Source: an uncultured Candidatus Actinomarina sp.
GTDB lineage: Bacteria > Actinomycetota > Acidimicrobiia > Actinomarinales > Actinomarinaceae
NCBI GenBank assembly: GCA_902593795.1
Contig: CACJJR010000005.1
Coordinates: 35,580 to 99,579 of the forward strand
Direction: 5' to 3'
DNA: 64,000 nt
Below the pieces are notes generated by a model that did no database searches, had not been told where the DNA came from, and was given only the letters and a program-made list of their open reading frames with translations. The translations under genes and the position numbers were made by a program. Each line of letters begins with the position of its first letter. The stretch's first letter is position 1. This document shows positions 14,361-29,031 of the stretch, piece by piece.

Positions 14361-14367
14361 GTGATTT

Positions 14368-14700
14368 TGTGAGATTATAAGCCGGATTCTGTATATGTTT
14401 CACATACGATAATCATCCATCTTGTATATTTGTTACCAAATATATCTAGCTACTTACCCGCAATTGTTTGCCGAGCCGGCTAATTGCTTCTTAGTATTGC
14501 TCCTAGAGGGGTTTACAAGCTTGTTTAATCACTTAAACAACTGGTGGTCTCTTACACCACCTTTTCACCCTTGCTTATCTAAGATAAGCGGTTTGTTTTC
14601 TGCTGCACTTTCCGTCAATTACTTGCCTGGGAGTTACCCAGCTCTATTGCTCTAAGGAGTCCGGACTTTCCTCGATAAATCGCGATTATCCATCTCACCT
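14368..14700 (-). ncRNA. rnpB: RNase P RNA, bacterial type A-like
   Basis: Reverse complement starts GGTGAGATGGATAATCGCG..GAGGAAAGTCCGGACTCC and ends ACAGAATCCGGCTTATAATCTCAC; terminal GTGAGAT/ATCTCAC form P1; internal GACGGAAAGTGCAGCAGAAAACAAACCGC, AAGGGTGAAAAGGTG, and GGTAA blocks. Confidence 0.97.
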
Positions 14701-14715
14701 AATTTATAGTAATTC

Positions 14716-22556: not shown

Positions 22557-23142
22557 TATGTGTAAGTTTCTTTTTTATATTTTGCTTTTTAGAGTTTACT
22601 ACGTTGTTGTTTTCCACTCCTGCAGTAACCATTCCAACAATTTGATAATCATGCGGTATTTTGAATAAATCATGAATTTTTTTTCTGTCAATACTGTGAA
22701 GTCCCATAAATCCTGTTGCAAAACCTTGTTCCTCAATAAGAAGTAAGCAGTTCATTAGTGCAGCTCCAGCGTCAACATACCAATATGGAATGTCCCATTC
22801 TTTAGAATTAACTGCATTTTTTTTGTCAGAAGATGAATATCTCTTGTGATACTCTTCTTCATTTAACAATAAAAAAAATAATCCTAAAGAATTCGATATC
22901 CACGGAGATTGATTATCTTTTTTGAAACTATCTTCATTAAATATTTGTGATACAGTTTCTATTTTTTTTGTGTCGAAAGTATTTAGTATTTCAATTCCTC
23001 TTGAAAATCCAGCTGTAGGTATTTTTATTGCGTACTTTGCAATATCTTCTAAGCTATTTTTATCAAAGGAAGCTTTTTGATAACTTCTGACTACTTTCCT
23101 ATTATTTAAAAGATTTTCGAGATAGGTAGTTTCATTAGTCAT
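22537..23142 (-). CDS. Nitroreductase-family protein
   Basis: NRKVVRSYQKASFDKNSLEDIAKYAIKIPTAG; WYVDAGAALMNCLLLIEEQGFATGFMGL. Confidence 0.85.
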   Translation of the reverse strand: MTNETTYLENLLNNRKVVRSYQKASFDKNSLEDIAKYAIKIPTAGFSRGIEILNTFDTKKIETVSQIFNEDSFKKDNQSPWISNSLGLFFLLLNEEEYHKRYSSSDKKNAVNSKEWDIPYWYVDAGAALMNCLLLIEEQGFATGFMGLHSIDRKKIHDLFKIPHDYQIVGMVTAGVENNNVVNSKKQNIKKKLTHNEFFSK

Positions 23143-24202
23143 TAAAATTTTGCAATGAATTTACTACAGCGTCTCCAACTTCGCCTGTAGTCATACCCAT
23201 TTTCCCAGCTGAAAGTGAGTCAAGCTTTATAGCTGTATCAATTACAGCTTTCTCTATGTTGTCAGCGTATTTCTCTTCTCCTAGTTGCTTTACCATCATC
23301 GCAGCGGCACCAACGCAAGCTAAAGGATTAATAGCATTTTGATTTGTATATTTTGGTGCAGAACCTCCTATAGGTTCAAACATGGAAACCCCTTCTGGAT
23401 TAATATTACCACCAGCAGCAATACCCATACCACCCTGAATCATCGCACCTAAATCGGTGATAATATCTCCAAACATATTATCAGTAACTATTACATCAAA
23501 CCATTCTGGATTTTTCACCATCCACATACACACAGCGTCGACATGGCCATAGTCTGTTTCAATTTCAGGATAATCTTTTGCCACATCATAAAAGATTCTT
23601 TCCCATAAATCGTGTGCATAAGTTAAAACATTAGTCTTCGCACATAATGTAATTTTTTTACGGTTATTATTTTTTGTATATTCAAAAGCATATTTTATAC
23701 ACCTGTGTATTGCATAATATGAATTAATTGATTCTTGAGTAGCAATTTCATTTTCAGTTCCGTAATGAATATAGCCTCCAGCCCCTGCATAAAGTCCTTC
23801 AGTATTTTCTCTAACAACAACAAAGTTGATATCTTCCGGCTTCTTATTTGCTAAGGGAGTTTCTACACCTGGATACAGAACCACAGGCCTTAAATTTATA
23901 TACTGATCAAATTCTTTTCTAAGTTTAAGGAGTATTCCTTGCTCAAGTATTCCAGGCTTTACACCAGGGTGACCTATTGCTCCTAATAAGACTGCATCAG
24001 CGTTCTTTAATTGCTCAATGTCTTGATCTGTGACAAGTTCTCCTGAACTTAGATACCTGTCACCACCTAAATCATTATTACTAAAAATAAATTCTACACC
24101 ATAGTCTGCAGAAGTTGCTTTAAGAACTTTAACTGCTTCATTTACTACTTCTGGACCAGTTCCATCACCAGGAAGTAATGATATGTTATATTGTTTACTC
24201 AT
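23135..24202 (-). CDS. leuB: 3-isopropylmalate dehydrogenase
   Basis: [54 protein letters not shown]; next to leuA. Confidence 0.88.
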
Positions 24203-25689
24203 TTGTTTAACGCATTCAAAAATGACTCTACGGAACCTTGTACAACATCAGTTGAAACAGCTCTTCCTTGCTTCATTAAGTGTCCATCATTTATTATTGT
24301 CACAATTTCAGCAGTTGCATCAGCACCTTTTGTAATGCTCTCAACTCTATAGTCAATTAAAGTTGCGTCTGATTTAAGAATAATTTTAACTGCAGTAAAT
24401 GCAGCATGAATCATACCATCTCCAGTTGCTTCTTCAGTCACTTCCTTATCGCCAACTTTAAGAGTTACACTAGCTGATGCGAATTCATCTTTACTGTTTA
24501 CAGAAACTGAAATAAGCTTTGCAGCATCATTTTTTGTTTCAACTTGTCCTACTATTGCTCTTAGTTCATTTTCTACAATTTCACCTTTTCTATCAGCAAT
24601 TTTTTTAAATGTATCAAAAGCATTATTAAAAGCATCATCATCTAAAGTAATTTCTAATTTATCTAGGGCGTCTTTGAATCCCGCTCTACCAGAATGTTTT
24701 CCTAGTATAATTTTTGCCTCCTGACCTACTGAATCAGGGGACATGATTTCATAAGTAGTTGTATTTCTTAAATAACCATGTTGATGAATTCCTGATTCGT
24801 GACTAAAGGCATTTTTGCCAACAACTGCCTTATTATATTGAACAGGATATCCAGTGAGTTTAGATACTAATCTTGATGTTTCAAATATCTCTTGAGTTTC
24901 AGCTTTAATTTCTACTCCAAATTGATCTTGTCTTGTTTTCACTGCCATAATAATTTCTTCAGTAGAAGTATTTCCTGCTCTTTCACCAATTCCATTTATA
25001 GCACCTTCAATTTGTCTCGCACCTGCAGTAATTGCTGTTAATGAATTAGCAACTGCTAATCCTAAATCATTATGGCAGTGTGTAGAAATTATTACATCAT
25101 CGTTACCACCTTTGACTTCATCATAAACTGCCGTTAATAAATCTAGGTAATCCTGAGGAGTTGCATATCCAACTGTATCTGGAACATTAATTGTTGTGGC
25201 TCCTTCTTCTACAGCCACTTTTAATACCTCAATAAGAAAATCTTTGTCAGTCCTTGTAGCATCTTGTGCTGAGAATTCTATGTTTTCACAAAGCTTTTTT
25301 GCATACTTTACAGACTCTTTTGTATCATTTAATACTTCCTCTTTGGTTTTTCGCAACATGTGCTCCATATGAATTTGAGATGTAGAAGTAAAAACATGTA
25401 TTCTTGATTCTTTAGCAACTTTTATTGCTTCCCATGCCTGTTCTATGTCATCTGGGTGACACCTAGCAAGAGAAGCAATAGTAGAATTTTTTATATTTTT
25501 TGCAATCAAATTTACACCTTCCCAGTCGCCAGGTGATGATGCTGCAAAACCAGCTTCAATTACATCAACCTTTAATTTTTCAAGCTGTTGTGCAATTAAC
25601 AACTTCTCTGATGGAGTTAAGGCTATTCCGGGACTTTGCTCACCATCTCTAAGTGTTGTGTCAAATATGACTAGTTTATCGTCGCTCAT
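24199..25689 (-). CDS. leuA: 2-isopropylmalate synthase
   Basis: [64 protein letters not shown]. Confidence 0.95.
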
Positions 25690-26702
25690 TTATCTTTTGA
25701 TATATCCTTAGCATTCAAAAAAGGCATCATTTCTCTTAGACCCTTGCCAACTTCTTCAAGTTGGTGTTTTGAAGCTTCCGCTCTTTTTTCGTTTAAAAAA
25801 GGAGACCCCTCTCTAGCTTGTGCCATCCACTCTTTAGCAAATGCACCAGATTGTATTTCTTCAAGAACTTTTTTCATTTCACCTTTTGTTTCAGAAGTTA
25901 TTATTCTTGAGCCCCTTGAAAAATCACCATATTCTGCTGTATCAGATATTGAATGCCTCATCCACTCAAAGCCACCTTCGTACATCAAATCAACAATTAG
26001 TTTTACTTCATGCAAGGTTTCAAAGTAAGCACTTTCTGGTTGGTATCCAGCTTCCACGAGTGTTTCAAAGCCATTTCTTATTAATTCAGTCAAACCTCCA
26101 CATAGAACAACTTGTTCACCAAATAAATCAGTTTCAGTTTCTTCTTTAAATGTGGTTCTTAAAATACCAGCTCTACCGCCACCAATTGCCGATGCATATG
26201 ACATTGCAATATTTTCAGTATTTCCTGAAGCATCTTTATGAACAGCTACAAGACATGGCATTCCACTACCTTCTGCATAGGTTCTTCTTAAAAGATGACC
26301 AGGGCCCTTTGGAGCAACCATAGCAACAGATAAATCTTCCCTTGGAACTATTTCATTAAAATGAATGTTGAAACCGTGTGCGAAGAGTAGGGTAGCCCCT
26401 TCTTTCATATGCAATGAGATTTCAGAGTTATAAACATCTGCCATAACTTGATCTGGTAAAAGAAGCATTACTATGTCAGCATCTTTAGTTGCATTTTCTA
26501 AGTTTGCGACTTTTAAACCCATTTCTTCAGCTCTATTGAAAGACTCAGATTCCTCTCTTAACCCAACAGTTATATCTACGCCAGACTCATGCAAGTTAAG
26601 TGAATGAGCATGTCCTTGACTACCAAAACCTATTACAGCTACTTTCTTTGACTTTATCAATTCTTGATCTATTGATGAGTCATAAATTATTTTGCTTTCC
26701 AT
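25686..26702 (-). CDS. ilvC: Ketol-acid reductoisomerase
   Basis: [72 protein letters not shown]. Confidence 0.97.
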
Positions 26703-26711
26703 ATATCCTCC

Positions 26712-27185
26712 TTACAAATTAGATTGCAGTGCTATTCTTCCACCTCTTACCATTTCTATAATTCCAAAAGGTTTCATCAAAGATTCAAATTTGTCTAGTT
26801 CCTTAGATGAACCTGTTAATTCAAAAATTGCAAAATCCTGTCCTACATCTACGGAAGTAGCATTTGAAAGAGAAGCTTTTTCAATTACAGAAGTTTGAGA
26901 ATCTTTGTTTATAGAAACTTTCAATAATAAAACTTCAGTTTCAATTGTCATAGATGGATCAAGTTCAACTATTTTTATAACATTAACTAATTTGTTTAAT
27001 TGTTTTTTTACTTGTTCAACAGCATCTAGTTCAGTAACTATTGTCATCTTGGATCTGCCTTCAATATTTGTTGGCCCAACGGAAAGAGAATTTATGTTGA
27101 AACCTCTTCTTGAAATAGTTGATGACACCCTTGCTAGAACTCCAGGTTTATCCTCTACTAAAACTGATAAAATTCTCTCACTCAT
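26712..27185 (-). CDS. ilvN: Acetolactate synthase small subunit
   Basis: LSVLVEDKPGVLARVSSTISRRGFNINSLSVGPT ACT domain; downstream of ilvB. Confidence 0.95.
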   Translation of the reverse strand: MSERILSVLVEDKPGVLARVSSTISRRGFNINSLSVGPTNIEGRSKMTIVTELDAVEQVKKQLNKLVNVIKIVELDPSMTIETEVLLLKVSINKDSQTSVIEKASLSNATSVDVGQDFAIFELTGSSKELDKFESLMKPFGIIEMVRGGRIALQSNL

Positions 27186-28894
27186 AAATTTTTAAGATCT
27201 TCTTTATTCATAATTATCTGATCGTTGCTTCCACCTGCAGGCACCATAGGAAATACCATATCATCTGGGTCAACAACACAATCTACCAAAACTGGTTTAT
27301 CGTTTATTTCTAACATTTTGTTAAAAACTTTTTCAACATCAGATTTTTCCATCATTCTCATGCCAATAGCACCCATTGATTCTGCTAATTTAACATAGTC
27401 AGGTGTATCGTGGGTTAGTTCAGAAGCAGAAAACTTACTATTGTAAAATATCTTTTGCCACTGACGTACCATCCCATGGTTACCATTATTAAAAACAACG
27501 ATCTTTATAGGAATATTTTCCGTAGAAGCTGTAATAAGCTCCTGACATGTCATTTGAAAGCATCCATCACCATCTAAAGCCAAAACTAATTTATTTGGGT
27601 ATGCTGTTTTAGCTCCAATTGCACCAGGTAGAGCATAGCCCATTGTTCCTAAACCACCTGAATTTAACCAAGTATTAGGTTCAGTAAAATTCCAGTGCTG
27701 GGAAATCCACATTTGATGTTGCCCAACTCCTGAAACTACAATTGCTTCCTCTTTAGTAAGTTTTTGAAGCTCTTCAAGTACATAAGGAACTTTGAGAGGC
27801 CCCTTGGCTTCTTGTTTGTAAGATAGAGGAAACTTAGATTTCATATCTTTAAGTTCTGATATCCAGCCTTCAGTATCTAGATTTGTGTCGTCAAGTGATT
27901 CTATGAGTCCTTTTATTACACTTTTTGCATCACCAACAATTGGTACTTCTGCATCTCTTACTTTTCCAATCTCTGCAGGATCTATATCTGCGTGAATAAC
28001 TTTTGCATTTTGTGCAAAAAAAGATGGATTAGCAGTTACTCTGTCATCAAACCTAACACCTATTGCAATCAATAAGTCTGCATTTTGGATAGAGGTTGTT
28101 GCGGTATAATTTCCATGCATTCCTGGCATTTCAAGACATAATTCATGTCCATCAGGGAATGCTCCTCTTCCCATAAGAGTAGTAACAACGGGGATTTTAA
28201 ATTTTGTAGCTAAATCGAACAGTTCGGTATTTGCTTTAGAATGAATGATTCCTCCACCAACGTATAAAATCGGTTTTTTAGATTTTTTAATTAAATTTGA
28301 AGCCTGTTGAACCATTTTAGGGTTTGGCTCAAGCGTTGGTTTGTATCCAGGTAGGTCTAATGCACCTGGTTCAACCCAAGAAGCTTGTTGATTAAGAATA
28401 TCTTTTGGTATATCGATTAATACTGGGCCGGGTCTTCCAGTAGTGGCAATATATTTTGCCTCTTTTAAAATCTGAGGTATTTCAGAAGCATCTGTAATTA
28501 AATAATTATGTTTTGTTGCTGCCATTGAAAGGCCAACAGTGTAAGCCTCTTGAAAAGCATCATTTCCAATAGCATCTGATGCTACTTGTCCGGTAATAGC
28601 TAATAAAGGAGTAGAGTCCATTAATGCATTTGCTAAAGGTGTAATTAAGTTTGTTGCACCAGGGCCAGAAGTAGCTATTACAACACCAAGCTCACCTGTT
28701 GCCTGAGCGTATCCTTCAGCCATGTGCCCAGCACCTTGTTCATGTCTAGCGAGTATGTGTCGAATAGGACTATCGTATAAAGGATCATAAGCAGGGAGTA
28801 TTGCACCACCTGGCACACCAAATACTGTAGAAACATTAATATGCTCTAAACCTCTTATTACTAATTCTGCGCCACTTAATTTGTCTTTTGTCAT
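27182..28894 (-). CDS. ilvB: Acetolactate synthase large subunit
   Basis: GGAILPAYDPLYDSPIRHILARHEQGAGHMAEGYAQATG, GDGCFQMTCQEL, ThDP-binding region. Confidence 0.97.
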   Translation of the reverse strand: MTKDKLSGAELVIRGLEHINVSTVFGVPGGAILPAYDPLYDSPIRHILARHEQGAGHMAEGYAQATGELGVVIATSGPGATNLITPLANALMDSTPLLAITGQVASDAIGNDAFQEAYTVGLSMAATKHNYLITDASEIPQILKEAKYIATTGRPGPVLIDIPKDILNQQASWVEPGALDLPGYKPTLEPNPKMVQQASNLIKKSKKPILYVGGGIIHSKANTELFDLATKFKIPVVTTLMGRGAFPDGHELCLEMPGMHGNYTATTSIQNADLLIAIGVRFDDRVTANPSFFAQNAKVIHADIDPAEIGKVRDAEVPIVGDAKSVIKGLIESLDDTNLDTEGWISELKDMKSKFPLSYKQEAKGPLKVPYVLEELQKLTKEEAIVVSGVGQHQMWISQHWNFTEPNTWLNSGGLGTMGYALPGAIGAKTAYPNKLVLALDGDGCFQMTCQELITASTENIPIKIVVFNNGNHGMVRQWQKIFYNSKFSASELTHDTPDYVKLAESMGAIGMRMMEKSDVEKVFNKMLEINDKPVLVDCVVDPDDMVFPMVPAGGSNDQIIMNKEDLKNL

Positions 28895-28911: not shown

Positions 28912-28941
28912 AAAAAAAAACCCCCCTATTTTTTTGGGAGG
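28912..28941 (-). terminator. Intrinsic terminator (attenuator) in the ilvB leader
   Basis: mRNA sense: CCTCCC-AAAAAAATA-GGGGGG (6-bp stem with one GU) followed by nine U's; lies just before the ilvB ATG. Confidence 0.85.
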
Positions 28942-28965
28942 CGCTCATCAAAGCAAAATGAGCGC
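28941..28965 (-). promoter_or_regulatory. Leader hairpin upstream of the attenuator terminator
   Basis: Perfect 8-bp stem GCGCTCAT/ATGAGCGC, 9-nt loop TTTGCTTTG; its 5' arm starts at the last base of the leader-peptide stop codon. Confidence 0.8.
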
Positions 28966-29015
28966 TAAATAAGTAATAGCACCAATTTTGAAATGACTAC
29001 ATTTAAATTTTTCAT
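28965..29015 (-). CDS. Branched-chain amino acid leader peptide MKNLNVVISKLVLLLI
   Basis: ATG AAA AAT TTA AAT GTA GTC ATT TCA AAA TTG GTG CTA TTA CTT ATT TAG; 10 of 16 codons are Leu/Val/Ile, followed immediately by hairpin and terminator upstream of ilvB. Confidence 0.88.
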   Translation of the reverse strand: MKNLNVVISKLVLLLI

Positions 29016-29023
29016 TTAGAATA

Positions 29024-29031
29024 ACTATAGT
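29024..29031. promoter_or_regulatory. Shared palindromic -10 element (ACTATAGT) for divergent ilvB-leader and queG transcription
   Basis: ACTATAGT is its own reverse complement, giving TATAGT on both strands; 8 nt from the leader ATG (-) and 14 nt from the queG ATG (+). Confidence 0.55.

Follow-up and report, generated by a model that had tools for sequence, protein, structure and literature searches.

The trp, his and ilv attenuators of the enterobacteria combine a leader peptide rich in the pathway's end product, at which the ribosome stalls, with an intrinsic terminator; their leaders carry Shine-Dalgarno sites, and overlapping segments of the leader RNA form an antiterminator and a terminator that exclude each other. 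Across the phylum Actinobacteria, leaderless mRNAs are common. Leader peptides rich in branched-chain amino acids (BCAA) were predicted before actinobacterial ilvB genes in 2005, the mechanism then being unclear (PMC1262725). For ilvB1 of Mycobacterium tuberculosis attenuation has been shown experimentally: GUA is the control codon, the change of LVVI to AAAA abolishes induction, and in the published model a ribosome that has reached the stop codon covers about 26 nt, so that an antiterminator mutually exclusive with the terminator cannot form (PMC13236596). In Corynebacterium glutamicum ilvBNC (the ilvB-II motif), transcription starts about 1 nt away from the leader ORF, whose control codons are CUU and GUA (PMC11857589, PMC10272879); the antiterminator and terminator hairpins stand side by side, and a first hairpin that spans the leader is an anti-antiterminator. 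Streptomyces possesses leaderless BCAA leader peptides before ilvB, leuA and leuS, with hairpins before ilvB and leuA (PMC8079986, PMC1262725). The ilvB-OMG and Leptospira ilvB motifs are structured RNAs whose leader ORFs, located before ilvB, are rich in BCAA/Thr (PMC10272879).

Here, we analyze a window of 64,000 nucleotides from an uncultured Candidatus Actinomarina sp., in which a BCAA-rich leader ORF, a hairpin (P1) and an intrinsic terminator (T) precede ilvB. The locus shares with C. glutamicum the adjacent hairpins and the head of the operon, with M. tuberculosis the BCAA leader ORF and, as predicted by folding, the blocking of a hairpin by a ribosome at the stop codon, and with the enterobacterial systems the product-rich leader and the terminator. 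However, the start of P1 at the stop codon is a feature of the Acidimicrobiia element unlike C. glutamicum ilvBNC; the two hairpins have GCC in common in C. glutamicum, but one base in the window and none in most relatives; and a leader-spanning hairpin is seen here only in Actinomarina. The leader is predicted to be leaderless, in contrast to the enterobacterial ones, and the mutual exclusion of both the enterobacterial and mycobacterial models was not found for P1 and T by folding in Acidimicrobiia. At Streptomyces leuA a typical terminator is missing and the LEU pseudoknot is present (PMC8079986, PMC1262725); the Acidimicrobiia copies before leuA have both the stop-codon hairpin and a terminator. 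The ilvB genes of Corynebacterium and Mycobacterium already provide examples of leaderless leaders, of GUA control codons and of abutting hairpins; the unusual point is that P1 adjoins T yet generally has no base in common with it, and that folding shows no displacement in the GC-rich relatives and a weak effect in the window. The Acidimicrobiia element may overlap the ilvB-OMG or the Leptospira ilvB motif, to which it was compared by description rather than by alignment. A literature search found no paper joining leader peptides, attenuators and Acidimicrobiia.

The ilvB leader of Candidatus Actinomarina

A sequence-only reading of the window had proposed a BCAA attenuator consisting of a leader ORF, a hairpin and a terminator just before ilvB, with a single C belonging to both stems and an operon in the order ilvB-ilvN-ilvC-leuA-leuB. 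Direct reading confirmed the coordinates of these elements (Table 1) and identified the one base that P1 and T have in common as C28941, while NCBIfam matches showed the gene order to be right. The G of the leader stop codon is the first base of the 5' arm of P1.

Table 1. Features of the ilvB leader and its operon, with the cimA attenuator of the same genome
Feature	Position	Strand	Details
Leader ORF MKNLNVVISKLVLLLI	28965..29015	minus	ATG 29015-29013, stop UAG 28967-28965; read directly; kept in 28 Actinomarina loci
Hairpin P1, 8 bp	28941..28965	minus	GCGCUCAU (28965-28958) / AUGAGCGC (28948-28941); direct reading
Intrinsic terminator T, 6 bp	28912..28941	minus	CCUCCC (28941-28936) / GGGGGG (28926-28921) + U9 (28920-28912)
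-10 box TATAGT	29024..29029	minus	8 nt 5' of leader ATG; predicted leaderless transcript start
GUG Val codon, putative control codon	28980..28982	minus	codon usage comparison
Alternative hairpin GGUGCUA/UAGCGCU	28961..28983	minus	leader codons paired to the stop codon plus the first half of P1; MFE fold
ilvB, acetolactate synthase large subunit	27182..28894	minus	first gene of operon, ATG 28894; TIGR00118, 754.7 bits, cut-off 538
ilvN, ilvC, leuA, leuB	23135..27185	minus	NCBIfam above cut-off: NF008864, NF004017, NF002086, NF002898
cimA attenuator	L212:1416-1501; genome contig C3 near 150890-150975, outside the window	plus	

Ten of the 16 residues of the leader peptide are Ile, Leu or Val, and among the 438 ATG ORFs of 12-22 codons in the window this is the sole one with at least 62.5% of these residues. 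The leader RNA folds with a z of -2.7 relative to shuffled sequences. The genome is AT-rich and measures 1.07 Mb, within which there are three instances of GGG with T8 directly behind it: two of them are the attenuators of ilvB and cimA (see below), and the third falls within a coding region.

The TATAGT box lies 7-8 nt before the leader ATG in 28/28 Actinomarina loci, and -10-like hexamers peak 7-9 nt before the ATG in the 67 GC-rich Acidimicrobiia loci described below; going by this promoter spacing, the leader ORF would be leaderless. The gene queG is divergent from the ilvB leader. Between the leader (minus strand) and queG (plus strand), the -10 box is embedded in a perfect palindrome, ACTATAGT (29023-29030), which is conserved in Actinomarina and is likely to be a two-way promoter. 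Elsewhere in the window, a bacterial RNase P class A RNA is encoded at 14362-14701 on the minus strand.

Conservation and covariation across Acidimicrobiia

The relatives found with IlvB are assemblies of Candidatus Actinomarina, from single cells and from metagenomes, and belong to the class Acidimicrobiia of the Actinobacteria. According to the sequence-only reading, loss of the BCAA-rich ORF or of the paired stems in close relatives would speak against an attenuator; both are kept, the leader ORF, P1 and T being present in each of the 28 Actinomarina loci whose DNA upstream of ilvB is intact. In these loci the leader peptide closes with LVLLL- or LVLVL- and a single further residue, and the stop codon is always UAG; P1 takes the form GCGCUC../..GAGCGC, and T the form CCUCC../..GGAGG or GGGGG followed by a U tract. 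The single base common to P1 and T recurs in all Actinomarina ilvB leaders. Within the genus, the CCUCCUU/AAGGAGG stem of two loci (L025/L026) represents a compensatory change of T, while the bases of P1 are nearly invariant, so that the covariation evidence for P1 comes mainly from more distant relatives.

Six Actinomarina genomes (G004, G017, G022, G025, G026, G028) yielded no ilvB, and the element is absent from them too. As some of these (G004, G017, G022) carry cimA, missing contigs are as likely an explanation as loss of ilvB. In one further genome (G015; L027 / L050), ilvB begins at residue 116 beside unrelated sequence, possibly through misassembly or truncation.

Beyond the genus, 67 parsed ilvB loci of GC-rich Acidimicrobiia have a BCAA-rich ORF, P1 and T upstream. 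An unconstrained stem search placed the start of P1 between -3 and +4 nt from the leader stop codon in 67/67 of them. The linker between P1 and T ranges from -1 to 8 nt, and in the GC-rich relatives it is mostly 0-8 nt, with no base in common. The stop codon itself pairs inside P1 in these species and varies together with its partner (UAG..CUA/CU, UGAC..GUCA). As the sequence-only reading had suggested, covariation was sought in related genomes, and the P1 and T stems covary strongly: of 17 pairs in 54 sequences from the relatives, 13 have changed on both sides, giving 117 both-side-change cells against 42.7 +/- 5.9 in shuffled alignments and 13-47 in slid controls.

Since a MAFFT alignment that included Actinomarina (A1) misaligned P1, we built a covariance model (R1) from the alignment of the relatives (A2), which holds no Actinomarina sequence. 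In the window, as in its genome, R1 matches nothing but the element under study (E roughly 2.8e-5, computed over the window). Matches were obtained in 261/296 Acidimicrobiia genomes (about 88% of those sampled) and in 101/398 genomes of the phylum; a match at L181 (E 0.0054) has no leader ORF and was treated as false. Searches of the window and 20 relatives with Rfam, including the T-box, ppGpp and other riboswitches, gave no match at the gathering score over the element, and relaxed thresholds gave only sub-threshold matches to unrelated families there.

Additional copies and the codon-product match

Many Acidimicrobiia genomes have two to three copies of the element. The additional copies precede cimA (citramalate synthase, in the isoleucine route), 2-isopropylmalate synthase genes of two LeuA types, and 3-isopropylmalate dehydrogenase, the identities of representative downstream genes having been confirmed by NCBIfam. 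The codons follow the downstream product: the leaders before cimA (n=12) total 42 Ile, 2 Val and 1 Leu; those before leuA (n=9), 36 Leu, 2 Val and no Ile; those before leuB (n=7), 14 Ile, 11 Val and 2 Leu; and those before ilvB (n=46), 87 Leu, 100 Val and 29 Ile. None of 20000 label permutations was as specific as the observed assignment, it being understood that the leaders are not all phylogenetically independent. The leuB-like copies (L140, L157, L170-L173, L180) have Val/Ile leaders almost devoid of Leu, and their terminator stem differs (ACCGTCCAC..), which suggests that the dehydrogenases behind them may serve the isoleucine (citramalate) branch.

The window's genome has its second attenuator before cimA, outside the window, with the leader peptide MKKIIIII, a UAG stop, the hairpin CAACGU/ACGUUG and the terminator CCCUUGC/GCAAGGG plus U9. 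This copy was missed by R1 and found by inspecting the DNA upstream of cimA; attenuators of the MKKIIIII type precede cimA in 29/29 Actinomarina loci whose upstream DNA was read. One clade has U-A as the apical pair of P1 where the other has A-U, and P1 and T are separate in these copies.

The Val codons of the ilvB leaders depart from those of the gene itself. GUG makes up 45% of Val codons in Actinomarina leaders versus 7.6% in ilvB, and GUA 54.5% in the leaders of GC-rich species versus 4.1% in ilvB. GUA occurs in 65/67 GC-rich leaders, 2-6 codons before the stop, and is replaced by GUG in Actinomarina. Such a switch of the rare Val synonym with genomic GC content fits the expectation if slow decoding is selected. 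The GUG of the window, which is rare in the genus, flanked by Leu codons and situated where the relatives have GUA, is the probable main control codon; in Actinomarina it may also have been kept for pairing with the stop-codon segment.

Ribosome position and leader folding

The sequence-only reading had further called for folding with ribosome-blocked positions, and we simulated the ribosome as a 26-nt block centred on either the stop or the control codon. With the block at the stop codon the probability of P1 is 0.00, and with the block at the control codon it is 0.62 in GC-rich species and 0.69 in Actinomarina; by default it is 0.90 in the GC-rich species. P1 is the sole conserved element whose formation depends on ribosome position in these folds. 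T, for its part, averages 0.90-0.97 across all ribosome states, and equilibrium folding, when searched for displacement of T by P1, gave a T loss >0.2 in 0/65 GC-rich species. With the ribosome on the GUG of the window, T declines from 0.98 to 0.66 through lost basal pairs, and it is partly weakened in 3/28 Actinomarina loci, the window among them. In these models, then, the position of the ribosome appears to set P1, yet P1 and T do not exclude each other as antiterminator and terminator usually do.

The earlier impression of a non-textbook mechanism is upheld to the extent that folding found no strong antiterminator competing for base pairs. As candidates, the sequence-only reading had offered a pairing of GGUGCU with AGCGCC and the capture by the first hairpin of the one C it shares with T. 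The former is not conserved, nearly all relatives having AGUGCU, which breaks the first pair. The latter is real in the ilvB leaders of Actinomarina, but the sharing is absent in most relatives and therefore cannot be a general principle of the element.

In the window without a ribosome, the GGUGCUA/UAGCGCU hairpin outcompetes P1, which drops to 0.13. This alternative hairpin is kept in Actinomarina as a nearly invariant AGUGCU/AGCGCU and was not seen in the GC-rich relatives; it is possibly an anti-antiterminator, as in C. glutamicum. Two other candidate interactions were set aside. Pairing of the leader 5' end with the U-tract and the Shine-Dalgarno region of ilvB, predicted in the window's MFE fold, is by eye not kept in relatives. 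Against GGAGG of T serving as the Shine-Dalgarno site of ilvB stand the very variable distance from T to ilvB and the differing stem of the leuB copies.

A proposed mechanism and its alternatives

The conserved leader peptide, the covarying stems, the codon-product match, the leaderless promoter spacing and the distribution over the whole class sustain the original proposal of a BCAA attenuator. The element is very probably a ribosome-mediated transcription attenuator of ilvB-ilvN-ilvC-leuA-leuB, of a type found throughout Acidimicrobiia. Coincidence of an ORF and hairpins in AT-rich DNA, where short Leu/Ile-rich ORFs arise more easily, is refuted by the single equally rich ORF among 438 similar ones and by conservation with covariation in both genus and class, and we give it practically no credence. 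Scarcely more plausible is a T that acts as a constitutive terminator or dampener behind a leader ORF that is a translated small gene with no part in amino acid sensing: T is indeed predicted to be stable at every ribosome position tried, but such a terminator would not need leader codons that track the product encoded downstream, be it cimA, leuA, leuB or ilvB. The tested ilvB1 leader of M. tuberculosis speaks for the attenuator reading (PMC13236596), and an observation from Streptomyces coelicolor counts against it: as reported in PMC1262725, changing the candidate control codons of ilvB had no effect.

Under the attenuator reading, transcription would begin at or beside the leader AUG, and the ribosome would load on the 5' end with no need of a Shine-Dalgarno site, as the promoter spacing suggests. 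When charged Leu, Val and Ile tRNAs are ample, the ribosome would reach the UAG and mask the 5' arm of P1; with P1 held open, T would form and transcription end. Under starvation, it would stall 3-5 codons short of the stop, where the rare Val/Leu codons lie, leaving P1 free, and P1, folded directly against T, would keep T from closing fully at the RNA polymerase, so that the operon is transcribed. The sequence, with P1 starting at the stop codon, supports the masking of P1 by any ribosome that reaches the stop, and we infer P1 to be the ON structure.

As to how P1 would then act on T, we favor hindrance of T closure, given that the two lie next to each other in every species, and hold it somewhat short of an even bet that P1 acts by crowding T, with the taking of one C in Actinomarina ilvB leaders, rather than by sharing a whole arm. 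The conventional alternative, on which we look with some doubt, is a competition in which P1 is an antiterminator that wins bases of T through C28941 or a small boundary, the GGUGCU/AGCGCU hairpin being the anti-antiterminator; it draws on the one base common to P1 and T in every Actinomarina ilvB leader, on the fall of T to 0.66 in the window with the ribosome on GUG, and on C. glutamicum, whose antiterminator and terminator hairpins abut and have GCC in common (PMC11857589). It sits poorly with the GC-rich relatives, where the linker is mostly 0-8 nt, no base is common and no T loss is predicted, and with the cimA copies of Actinomarina, in which P1 and T are likewise separate. P1 might otherwise be a pause or synchronizing hairpin that keeps the RNA polymerase waiting for a ribosome to load on the leaderless ORF, T being controlled in some other way. 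The default formation of P1 in GC-rich species just upstream of T would suit such a role, and in C. glutamicum the first hairpin has been suggested to act in pausing (PMC11857589); however, folding disclosed no other alternative structure that would link ribosome position to T, and we regard this explanation as unlikely. Returning to crowding, its extension to a general design, in which a stop-codon hairpin crowds an adjoining terminator with no common base and is reused for ilvB, leuA, leuB and cimA by changing the codons only, is a speculative and rather doubtful proposition.

If the attenuator reading is true, the element constitutes an attenuator family that is unlabelled in Rfam, in which the sensed amino acid (Leu, Ile or Val) is swapped while the structure is kept, and the manner in which actinobacterial ilvB attenuators stop termination becomes testable through P1-T spacing alone. 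Actinomarina is one of the smallest free-living cells and is usually thought to be poor in regulation; it would then keep at least two such switches despite its tiny cell. Genes for ilvB of the Acidimicrobiia type also turn up in public records titled Bifidobacterium breve or Gammaproteobacteria (L098, L104, L116, L055), which are probably mislabelled or chimeric bins.
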